64,000 nt of DNA from NCBI RefSeq assembly GCF_016495725.1, contig NZ_CP054705.1:2232001-2296000 (forward strand), in the 5' to 3' direction. Positions 12,557 to 14,976 of this stretch are shown here, piece by piece (position 1 is the first letter of the stretch; every line of letters starts with the position of its first letter). Below the pieces are notes generated by a model that saw only the letters and a program-made list of their open reading frames with translations, did no database searches and was not told the DNA's origin. The translations under genes and the position numbers were made by a program. This DNA comes from Salicibibacter cibarius (GTDB lineage: Bacteria > Bacillota > Bacilli > Bacillales > Marinococcaceae).

Positions 12557-13143
12557 GTGAATTGCATGATCAAGAAAAAGACATCATCCGCTATTTTGAG
12601 CAAATGGATCGTAGTTATTTTATTGATGAAAATAAAGAATTAGCTTCGTTGGATCAGGCTTTATCCATTGGGTATGGTCAAACGATTTCCCAGCCGACGC
12701 TCGTGTTGAAGATGACGTTGGAACTTGATCTGTTTCCCGAATCCAGGGTATTGGAAGTTGGCACAGGCTCTGGTTTTCAAACCGCTTTACTGGCGGCATT
12801 TTCAGAATCCGTCTATACCGTAGAACGGATTGGAGCCTTGCATGAGCGGGCCAAAGAAAGATTGAAGGAAGCGGAATTTACGAACATTCACTTCAAACAC
12901 GGGGACGGGAATCTTGGTTGGAAAGAAAACGCTCCCTTTGACCGAATCATGGTGACAGCGGCTGCTCCCGACATCCCGGAGCAACTCCTCGGGCAATTAA
13001 AAAATGGGGGTAAGATGATCATTCCCATCGGTAATCCGCACAGCCAAGACTTGACGTTAATCGAGAAGGGTGAAACGGGAGAGATTACGTCTACATTCAT
13101 TATGCCGGTCGTATTTGTAGGCTTGGTCGGTGGAGAAGATTAA
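12529..13143 (+). CDS. pcm: Protein-L-isoaspartate O-methyltransferase
   Basis: SAM-dependent repair enzyme that methylates isoaspartyl residues. Motifs: YGQTISQPTLVLKM (family hallmark), VLEVGTGSGFQTALLA (SAM motif I), VYTVERIGALHERAKERL, FDRIMVTAAAPDIPEQLL and GGKMIIPIG. Start is uncertain: ATG 12529 has AAAGGA 6 nt upstream but overlaps the DUF429 gene by 28 bp; TTG 12562 after AAGGGGTGA would give a start at HDQEKDII. Either way it is tied to the upstream gene. Confidence 0.9.
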   Translation: MDLLFREGVSELHDQEKDIIRYFEQMDRSYFIDENKELASLDQALSIGYGQTISQPTLVLKMTLELDLFPESRVLEVGTGSGFQTALLAAFSESVYTVERIGALHERAKERLKEAEFTNIHFKHGDGNLGWKENAPFDRIMVTAAAPDIPEQLLGQLKNGGKMIIPIGNPHSQDLTLIEKGETGEITSTFIMPVVFVGLVGGED

Positions 13144-13266
13144 AAGTGGAAAATAAGACACTCATGATTTTGATTGAGTTCTCGATGATTGTTTAGTAAA
13201 ATAATAATTGTGTAAGGAAAAAGAACTAAATATCGGGATTTATTACATGAATAGGGAGTGAATATA

Positions 13267-14784
13267 ATGAAGTTACAAGATGTTCTTCCTAAGATGAGTA
13301 AAATGTATCTATCACGAATCATTGATAGCTTTCTAAAAGATGTAAAGATCAAAGAAGAAGAAGAGATGCGACAAGTCATTTTGAAAAACATAGATGAATT
13401 TCAGAACGAAGATCGTGTGAAGAGAAATTTAAATTTTCTGGAGGAAGATAGAGATATTGCTCTCCTCAATGAAATGATTCTTATGTCATTAATGGAAAAC
13501 GAGGGGTATGTACTAGAAGAAGCATCATTGCTACAGGACGTGGAAAAATTAGAAAGCCAGATAGTATCAGATAGTGACGATGAAGAATTTATAAAAGGAC
13601 TAATGACGGAAGAATATTATAGAATTTATTCTTCTGTTCTCTCAGCTGCCTGGAAGAAAGACGAGACTTTAAATGCCCATGAAACTAATATATTAAGGGT
13701 ATTAAGAACAGAATTAAACATATCTAAAAGAAATCATTACATTGTTGAAAGCAGAATAGGTCGCTTTCCTCAAAAAGGAAACAGGCCTCATAGCCATAGG
13801 CAAATTGAAAAATCTTTGCGTAACTTACAATCAAGAGGGCTTATTTTAAGGTTTAAATCCAATGCTGTCTATTACATCATCCCATCTGAGATTGCCAGAG
13901 TTATTCGGTACGAACTTGGTGGAGAGTTAAGAAAGAAAACCTACGAAGAATTACTAGGTGATCTAACCAAAAATCACTTGAAGCATGTTGTGTCACAATT
14001 CAATTTTAATTCTTCCGGGTCAAAAGAAACAATAATCAACCGAATCCTCAAACATGATATTCTGCCATCAGAAGCCTTGGATACTTTTTCTAATAAAGAA
14101 TTAACGGATATTCTGAAAAATTTGGAAGGGGTCAATATCTCAGGAAAGAAAGAACAAAGAATCAGCAATATCATCGATTATTATGAAAATCTTTCAACCT
14201 CTAATATATCTGATCCAACTGATAAACGATCATTGTACTATGATTATTTTGAAGAATTAGCTGCTAGGAATTTGAAACCGTTACGAGTGAACAAAGTCAT
14301 TAAAAAAGACCTCGACACTGAAAAGTATTTTGAAGAAGCTACCAGGTATTTATTCGAGGAAAAGTTAGGGGTCGAATTGGTCAACATGTCCGGGAATAAG
14401 CATGCTGACGGAAAAATAAAATTTAACAGCAAAGAATCTATTCTTTGGGACAATAAGAGTGTCGAATCAGCCTATACTTTTCCAGATAATCATTTTGATC
14501 AGTTTCTCAACTACATTAGAGCAAATGATAATCGAGTAACAGCTTTCATAATAATCACTTCTTTCATTTCTGATGAAGCGGTATCCAGGGCACAGAAATT
14601 GAAGGCTTATACGGAAACGGATACTGACGTAGCCATCATTACATCCGAGGACTTAAAATTTGTTGCTGAAAACTGGAAGGAATATTCAACACAAAAAGAA
14701 CCAAAATTTAATTTACAAATACTTAACTACACTGGGGAGTTGACAAGAGAAATTTTAAAAGACAGAATGAGCTGGTCTTTATAA
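13267..14784 (+). CDS. Putative DNA-binding PD-(D/E)XK nuclease with winged-helix and SAP-like repeats
   Basis: A 505-aa protein I cannot assign to a named family. Visible parts: charged helical N-terminus (1-150); a winged-helix-like segment (RQIEKSLRNLQSRGLILRF, about 178-215); two SAP-like helix-loop-helix units (LKHVVSQFNFNSSGSKETII, about 235-265, and ELTDILKNLEGVNISGKKEQ, about 278-308); then a C-terminal domain with HADGKIKF (D381) and ILWDNKS (D395-N-K397), fitting D-x14-(D/E)xK. ATG 13267 follows GGGAG. It is AT-rich relative to neighbours, stands alone and ends in a terminator, so it looks acquired. A restriction or defence role is inference. Confidence 0.6.
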   Translation: MKLQDVLPKMSKMYLSRIIDSFLKDVKIKEEEEMRQVILKNIDEFQNEDRVKRNLNFLEEDRDIALLNEMILMSLMENEGYVLEEASLLQDVEKLESQIVSDSDDEEFIKGLMTEEYYRIYSSVLSAAWKKDETLNAHETNILRVLRTELNISKRNHYIVESRIGRFPQKGNRPHSHRQIEKSLRNLQSRGLILRFKSNAVYYIIPSEIARVIRYELGGELRKKTYEELLGDLTKNHLKHVVSQFNFNSSGSKETIINRILKHDILPSEALDTFSNKELTDILKNLEGVNISGKKEQRISNIIDYYENLSTSNISDPTDKRSLYYDYFEELAARNLKPLRVNKVIKKDLDTEKYFEEATRYLFEEKLGVELVNMSGNKHADGKIKFNSKESILWDNKSVESAYTFPDNHFDQFLNYIRANDNRVTAFIIITSFISDEAVSRAQKLKAYTETDTDVAIITSEDLKFVAENWKEYSTQKEPKFNLQILNYTGELTREILKDRMSWSL

Positions 14785-14812
14785 GAATCCATCCAGTTAA
14801 ACACCTTTTCTT

Positions 14813-14839
14813 CGGCATGCCACAAAGCGTGCCGTTTTT
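14813..14839 (+). terminator. Rho-independent terminator
   Basis: CGGCATGC (14813-14820) pairs with GCGTGCCG (14827-14834, one G-T) and is followed by T5. It lies 28 bp after the nuclease-like gene. Confidence 0.8.
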
Positions 14840-14864
14840 CTTAACATGAATACATACAATTAAA

Positions 14865-14893
14865 TTGACGAAAAGTTTTTGCAAATATATACT
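14865..14893 (+). promoter_or_regulatory. SigA-type promoter of the FAD dehydrogenase gene
   Basis: TTGACG (14865-14870), 17-bp spacer, TATACT (14888-14893). It lies about 84 bp upstream of the dehydrogenase ATG. Confidence 0.6.
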
Positions 14894-14976
14894 GATTTTT
14901 AATTCTAATATCTTTACCGTAAAAGTTTTGCAAGACGCTAATTTATGTATCTACCAAAAGAGGAGGCCTTCATATC

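Follow-up and report, generated by a model that had tools for sequence, protein, structure and literature searches.

An unnamed family of predicted stand-alone FokI-type nucleases with SAP repeats and a split winged helix in bacteria and archaea of salt habitats

In the 64,000-nucleotide stretch of Salicibibacter cibarius DNA analysed here (the window), the gene at 13267..14784 (+) very probably encodes a stand-alone DNA-cutting enzyme, composed of a FokI-like cutting domain and DNA-binding domains. We consider it on balance probable that this horizontally moving endonuclease works alone as a type-IV-like restriction against foreign DNA, and the gene may protect salt-loving bacteria and archaea from viruses or other foreign DNA. 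The arguments computed in this work are the architecture and fold of the protein, the alignment of its catalytic residues, its mobility, the purifying selection acting on it and the near absence of linked methyltransferases. FokI-type domains are valued as separable cutting modules, and the gene would represent an unnamed stand-alone FokI-type family whose carriers in salt habitats include bacteria, archaea and a provirus, and which would spare its host without a linked methyltransferase.

The open reading frame begins with ATG and encodes 505 aa, its stop codon lying within the coordinates, and it is placed as in the original prediction. It is a real gene far beyond chance, since 29 homologues (23-88% identity) keep its motif and dN/dS against the nearest copy, that of the related genome G001, is 0.067. 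Its flanks were read as genes of housekeeping type, as had been predicted: a pcm-like SAM-dependent methyltransferase upstream and a FAD-dependent oxidoreductase downstream. The AT-richness attributed to the gene was also found (34.0% G+C in the ORF vs 42.9% in the whole window), but three further patches of the window match it in this respect; these equally AT-rich stretches, at about 32-35 kb, 42-44.5 kb and 45-47.5 kb, could also be acquired DNA. The terminator with which the gene had been credited corresponds to a hairpin of the intrinsic-terminator type with a trailing T run at 14813..14834 (+), which is statistically weak because one such hairpin was observed and 0.8 were expected in shuffles. 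A promoter-like site at 13174..13202 (+) is a consensus match only (9 of 12 positions), ten such sites being observed vs 7.5 expected by chance; the sequence GTTTAGTAAAATAAT is also found upstream of the G001 copy.

The C-terminal part of the protein (residues ~340-503; 14284..14775, +) is predicted to form a FokI-type PD-(D/E)XK nuclease domain, assigned from structural matches to FokI, Nt.BspD6I and R.BspD6I2 and from the Pfam family PF09254. For the AlphaFold2 model built with 26 sequences (full length, pLDDT 88.9 and pTM 0.81), the top three Foldseek rows were FokI, with E-values of 4.6e-6 to 1.9e-5, and Nt.BspD6I came next. The TM-scores against whole FokI chains were low (0.22-0.28, Foldseek) and the rmsd high because the domains are placed differently; in the VIA alignment with FokI (Z 14.9, 236 residues), the rmsd of 11.2 A arises from aligning two domains together. 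Nt.BspD6I gave Z 13.0 over 183 residues at 4.0 A, and single-domain support for the nuclease fold came from R.BspD6I2 (2p14), with Z 11.8 over 154 residues at 3.2 A. FokI_cleav_dom (PF09254) matched the window protein at 6.7e-5 (residues 353-425), with a score of 22.8 vs a cut-off of 25; two relatives exceeded this cut-off with 25.6, namely L030 and L003 (which is also L012), and 10 of the 30 members of the family alignment A3 had a match with E<=1e-3. Searches of PDB sequences gave nothing significant, a viral fold library gave no match at E<=0.001, and the best match in PHROGs had an E-value of 0.33.

The predicted motif HADGKIKF...ILWDNKS is present, with D381 (14407..14409, +) and the D395-N396-K397 triplet (14449..14457, +) where they had been placed. 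The profile A5, built from 16 rows for the C-terminal domain, retrieved FokI first among PDB sequences, though only with an E-value of 0.056, and in its alignment E356, the invariant acidic residue of FExAT (14332..14334, +), D381, D395 and K397 fall on E425, D450, D467 and K469 of FokI, as counted from the alignment; D450, D467 and K469 are the catalytic residues of that enzyme. Ten residues (F355, E356, A358, T359, D381, G382, W394, D395, N396 and K397) do not vary across the 30 rows of A3, which comprises the window protein and 29 intact homologues from halophilic Bacilli and haloarchaea. A3 was built without the broken, fragmentary or contig-edge copies G003, G007, L029, L031, L036, L040 and the plasmid remnant H8, and also without the differently built L041 and L044. 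When five broken or edge-cut copies outside A3 were searched, the motif was found in four, L040 being the one without it. The original proposal of a PD-(D/E)XK-type C-terminus is therefore borne out by Foldseek, VIA and the residue alignment, and can be stated more exactly as FokI-type: structure prediction returned a nuclease fold, and the homologues did not turn out to belong solely to a known non-nuclease family.

Winged helices and SAP repeats have established DNA-binding roles, and both are predicted in the N-terminal half, whose 319 residues gave pLDDT 88.7 and pTM 0.85 when modelled alone. MarR/ArsR/BlaI-type winged helices match this half in two pieces (VIA), which indicates that a helical insert of ~70 residues splits the winged helix. 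Part one would comprise residues ~62-104 (13450..13578, +), as delimited by the model and the MarR/ArsR/BlaI-type matches; the insert, residues ~105-176 (13579..13794, +), with modelled helices at 106-112, 115-131, 137-149 and 154-163; and part two, residues ~177-219 (13795..13923, +), with a helix at 177-189, a wing at 194-204 and a helix at 207-216. The alignment with 7wze_A had Z 8.2 and 1.7 A for 74 residues spanning 56-218. The VIA rows for this half are winged helices with Z 6.9-8.4, near the tool's stated background, and the N-terminal half alone gave no Foldseek match at E<=0.001; the winged-helix assignment, which we regard as supported by the models, is argued from the regularity of the matches and not from the height of Z. 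The winged helix of the original prediction is upheld in this way, with the addition of a split that was absent from that description.

SAP repeat 1 lies at residues ~223-264 (13933..14058, +), where PF02037 matched residues 232-264 of the window protein with an E-value of 8.1e-4, below the cut-off (19.4 bits vs 23.9). Seven relatives that share the layout (L003, L006, L013, L020, L028, L030 and L043) exceeded the cut-off for this family, and 21 of the 30 A3 members matched it with E<=1e-3. The putative SAP-like repeat 2, at residues ~267-308 (14065..14190, +), is recognised from a similar helix pattern in the models, an SAP-type sequence by eye and weak profile matches, such as that of PF18953 to residues 277-307 in L006. 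The SAP assignment proposed earlier thus exceeds the Pfam cut-off in relatives and falls below it in the window protein. When haloarchaeal or viral members were scanned one by one (L010, L011, L033 and L038), none of the four had a SAP or a FokI match in Pfam. Three further assignments were not adopted: an ENT domain (PF03735, 0.00078, in 1 of 30 members) and a metallo-beta-lactamase match (NCBIfam, 0.011) were taken as chance, and residues 115-165 of the insert are TerB-like by eye only, no TerB match (PF05099) being listed for the scanned members. TerB-like is how the first protein of Shango is described in the extracts of PMC10250203.

The distribution of the gene is sporadic, a small minority of relatives carrying it. 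Among the close relatives, own genome included, 8 of 61 genomes had a match, two of these copies being broken or fragmentary (in two frames in G003, 63 residues in G007). The N-terminal profile found 9 of 397 genomes across the order, own genome included, and 4 of 398 across the phylum, counting the own genome and the nuclease-free case G231 described below; the full-length profile found 3 of 299. GTDB contigs, scanned once, yielded 30 loci (20 Bacilli, 9 Halobacteria and 1 Bacteroidota), and many of the Bacilli loci come from genera with names pointing to saline or alkaline habitats. Further copies occur on a Natrinema plasmid and in the Halorubrum virus Humcor1, an induced provirus of Halorubrum coriense according to the extracts of PMC7911831. 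In viruses the gene is very rare: besides Humcor1, three scans of IMG/VR gave one locus, L080, perhaps the same provirus. Broken or remnant nuclease genes were observed in several genomes and on a Halalkalicoccus plasmid (L008 in G007; L007/L009 in G003; L029, split into two frames; L031, lacking the N-terminal half; and L083:4001-4147).

In the window the gene forms a single-gene insertion between the pcm-like and FAD-dependent oxidoreductase genes (13145..14960, on neither strand in particular). In G002 and G003, which belong to the same genus as the window genome (G000), these two genes adjoin with no insertion; homology of the window to the empty site of G002 (L052; that of G003 is L053) ends at 13144 and restarts at 14961, which delimits an insertion of ~1.8 kb. 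Its only other ORF of at least 80 aa is an antisense frame of 83 aa (13140-13391), and its ends show no clear repeats. Elsewhere in their genomes G002 has an intact copy and G003 a broken one. While the pcm-like protein of G000 is 81% identical to that of G001 and 86% to that of G002, the nuclease is 88% identical to that of G001, 57% to that of G002 and 78% to that of Salibacterium, another genus. In the tree, G000 and G001 come out close to Salibacterium (92/98, not starred). The G002 copy groups with those of Natribacillus (100/98) and Geomicrobium (99/96), within a distinct clade of six rows (100/100), so that the G000 and G002 copies, from the same genus, stand in different clades. As the bacterial and haloarchaeal rows form two separate clades, recent exchange between domains is not evidenced. 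The copies are under strong purifying selection (dN/dS 0.03-0.08), with values of 0.067 (G000/G001), 0.046, 0.074, 0.078 and 0.034 for the five of eight pairs that were computable; these are rough because dS exceeds 1 in three of the five, and dS could not be computed in the other three pairs. The gene therefore moves, in the window's case alone, and yet is strongly constrained.

A homologous neighbour within 5 kb was shared by 18 of 300 pairs of the 25 bacterial carrier loci vs 5 of 153 pairs of 18 random loci. Most of these pairs join copies that are related to each other: G000/G001, the Alkalibacillus trio, L018/L019, L014/L015 and G003/Natribacillus. In the last pair, of two genera, the nuclease sits at the same place with a run of common neighbours, and a gene read as of catalase type adjoins it there. 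A catalase-type gene with 41% identity also adjoins the Sporosarcina cascadiensis copy, and in Alkalibacillus a KatG-like gene lies two genes from the nuclease (L027:6404-7879; L047:9580-11061; L029:5959-7608; L023:11292-13475 for these cases together); the recurrence may be chance or may reflect a habit of insertion.

The original prediction described a solitary gene whose layout was not known from any named system, and this agrees with our searches: for the window protein, PADLOC gave nothing at E<=10 and NCBIfam nothing meaningful. The survey of the neighbourhoods of homologues showed that some neighbours do match defence models: among hand-picked ones 7 of 9 matched PADLOC models at E<=1e-3, namely PD-Lambda-1 (L013, 5.5e-77), C3a187 (L012, 1.2e-108), PDC-S05 (L023), PDC-S41/AbiO/Nhi (L015), PDC-M54A (L026), PDC-S04 (L018) and, weakly, JetC/HerA (L038). 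The PD-Lambda-1-like gene (L013:6262-7665) is the divergent neighbour of the Salipaludibacillus copy, ~335 bases off, and the PDC-M54A match (2.6e-18) is a 1452-aa protein upstream of the Sporosarcina copy (L026:2787-7145). Nevertheless, there was no enrichment over random loci, 52 models matching the 114 neighbours of 18 carrier loci and 85 matching 114 control ORFs at E<=1e-15. This control is coarse, since models and not proteins were counted, with the 25 commonest among the matches listed, and the random loci came from fewer genomes than the carriers. ORFs shorter than 150 or longer than 1500 aa were dropped on both sides and, on the test side, also those reaching past 5 kb; the 18 random loci supplied 163 ORFs, of which the control used 114, from 14 of these loci, and 49 (including all of L098-L101 and one long L094 ORF) were left out to equalise numbers. 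Because this random-locus control, coarse as it is, showed no enrichment, the term defence island proposed for the locus is unsupported.

The gene might be a type II (IIS) restriction enzyme of the usual sort that relies on a protecting methyltransferase encoded elsewhere or has lost it, a reading that we hold to be unlikely. FokI and BspD6I, its nearest folds, are type IIS enzymes or nickases, which favours it. However, a scan for DNA methyltransferase motifs in 29 of the 30 GTDB loci (L041 left out; some loci cut by contig ends) found no linked methyltransferase in any of them: of 325 ORFs of at least 150 aa, four had a motif and none was a methyltransferase on reading. In 13 more stretches with 173 ORFs, among them the window and three re-fetched loci, the one match was an N-6 DNA methylase, annotated ~5.4 kb from the Natrinema plasmid copy (L010); this match indicates that the scan works, and it is a point in favour of the type II reading. 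Since no methyltransferase is linked except near this one plasmid copy, the family does not have the appearance of type II restriction-modification, and the nuclease gene was moreover inserted alone. At the genome level, 14 carriers had PF02086 in 3 cases, PF00145 in 5 and PF01555 in 10, which also speaks against the type II reading; PF02384 was found in 14 of 14 (12 over the cut-off) and PF07669 in 12 of 14, although the open frames with these matches vary widely in length. The methyltransferase families are not the same in all carrier genomes and offer no hint of the target. G000 matched none of PF02086, PF00145 and PF01555, but an HsdM-like N6 methyltransferase is present elsewhere in its genome, which is compatible with a type II enzyme and led us to drop the idea of a host devoid of methylation. 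Avoidance of Dam methylation was also considered, and the count of PF02086 is uninformative because Dam enzymes of this family are rare in the group anyway.

SAP domains occur in repair nucleases, Pfam FANC_SAP matched L044 (0.026), and strong purifying selection would suit a host nuclease of DNA repair or recombination, as the original prediction had allowed; such a housekeeping role is nonetheless quite unlikely, because the gene is sporadic, present in a small minority of relatives, changes place, and has copies that are broken or horizontally moved. A free-standing homing endonuclease, that is, a selfish gene spreading by cutting empty sites, would account for the mobility, the single-gene insertion with clean empty sites, the viral copy and the same place occupied in G003 and Natribacillus; but we find it very unlikely, as no single insertion site emerges for the family (the few locus pairs sharing a neighbour being mostly related), G002 and G003 carry nothing at the G000 site and have their copies elsewhere, and clear end repeats are lacking. 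Finally, the enzyme could be a factor of viral or plasmid competition (superinfection exclusion) with the chromosomal copies as leftovers. Copies in Humcor1, in its chromosomal form L039 and on the Natrinema plasmid agree with this, as does the orientation of the gene in Humcor1, which is opposite to that of 30 of the other 35 features of the stretch, in the manner of a cargo gene; most other loci, on the other hand, were read as having no plain viral genes nearby (L013 is an exception), and the explanation, which we consider quite improbable, differs from a type-IV-like restriction enzyme solely in who benefits.

In the preferred reading, the gene on its own would make up a restriction system resembling type IV. 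Its product would bind the target DNA by the split winged helix and the two SAP repeats, and the C-terminal FokI-type domain would cut it with Mg2+ through D381, D395 and K397, plus E356. FokI needs two cleavage domains, and therefore cutting would probably require two nuclease domains paired on the target. With almost no linked methyltransferases in the family, it would be what the enzyme targets that protects the host; most likely, the DNA-binding part would recognise a foreign feature, either a modified base or a structure found in viral or plasmid DNA as it enters or replicates. We infer the cutting activity, the dimerisation, the antiviral role and the kind of target, and among modes of action we favour a type-IV-like one; the modification dependence proposed originally would have only the near absence of linked methyltransferases (with the exception of L010) in its favour.

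The N-terminal half has relatives outside this family. A Marinilabiliales protein (L041) shares a related N-terminal half (blastp E 2e-6, 27%, in a small database) and has an Mrr-like C-terminus (Mrr_cat 0.0013, 19.3 bits vs a cut-off of 21); its relatives H3-H5 are found on three Pseudoalteromonas plasmids, and L041:7590-9440, L081:7001-8845 and L082:7001-8845 all join such an N-terminal half to an Mrr-like nuclease. On two of the plasmids the Mrr-type gene occupies the same place after an HNH endonuclease gene and the downstream genes differ, which looks like a variable hotspot. In G231 a Pfam scan recognised no nuclease domain in an SAP-repeat protein whose N-terminal half is related (profile E 3.2e-23), and the gene of this protein overlaps BrxD/SngB-like (9.4e-78 / 2e-61) and BrxHI/SngC-like (7.6e-172 / 7.3e-127) genes. 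These three overlapping genes, for the SAP-repeat protein, the ATPase and the helicase (L049:9248-14135), are followed by an HD-domain hydrolase, and the first of them, which had no PADLOC match, may represent a so far unrecorded version of a BREX- or Shango-like module.

Together these relatives suggest that the winged-helix/SAP half is a reusable DNA-sensing half, the nuclease-free case resting on one cluster. Tentatively, and with more doubt than confidence, we propose that it is a foreign-DNA sensor used in three ways: with a FokI-type nuclease (halophilic Bacilli, haloarchaea and an inducible virus), with an Mrr-type nuclease (Bacteroidota and Pseudoalteromonas), or nuclease-free, serving a BrxD/BrxHI-type ATPase-helicase pair. 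If this were true, the window gene would be a one-protein cousin of a BREX/Shango-like system in bacteria and archaea of salt habitats, and the sensor half could reveal what BREX/Shango-like systems recognise; its position beside BrxD/BrxHI-like genes offers a handle on how such ATPase-helicase systems find foreign DNA.

Compared with known systems, the window protein shares with the type IIS enzyme FokI (PF09254) the C-terminal nuclease fold, the D/D-x-K residues and a preceding winged-helix part, and differs in its SAP repeats and split winged helix and in the lack of a linked methyltransferase at nearly all loci; the FokI recognition domains had no sequence match in it. The nickase Nt.BspD6I and the small subunit R.BspD6I2 have the same nuclease fold, but R.BspD6I is a heterodimeric restriction enzyme according to the title of 2p14, whereas the window gene stands alone. 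The winged-helix type IV endonucleases (DpnI, FcyTI, Psp4BI, HhiV4I and others; PMC11037411) also combine a winged helix with a nuclease, mostly without a neighbouring methyltransferase, and in the extracts of that paper the fusions that read 6mA are mostly stand-alone. The same extracts name PD-(D/E)XK, HNH, GIY-YIG, PLD and NTPase parts and no fusion with SAP repeats or with a FokI-type domain, and cite FokI as a winged-helix protein without methylation dependence (PMC11037411). The Mrr-type relatives (L041 and the Pseudoalteromonas H3-H5) share the N-terminal half and end in an Mrr-like and not a FokI-type domain. With Shango and BREX (SngB/BrxD ATPase, SngC/BrxHI helicase) the likeness is the related N-terminal half clustered with both proteins in G231, whereas the window gene carries its own nuclease and matches no PADLOC model; neighbours forming a Shango trio (TerB-like protein, ATPase and helicase) were not seen on reading the window and the carrier loci. 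No paper on a SAP plus FokI-type family was found in the open-licence PubMed Central literature, and we conclude that these proteins are an unnamed family of stand-alone FokI-type nucleases within a kind already known, the restriction-like endonucleases.
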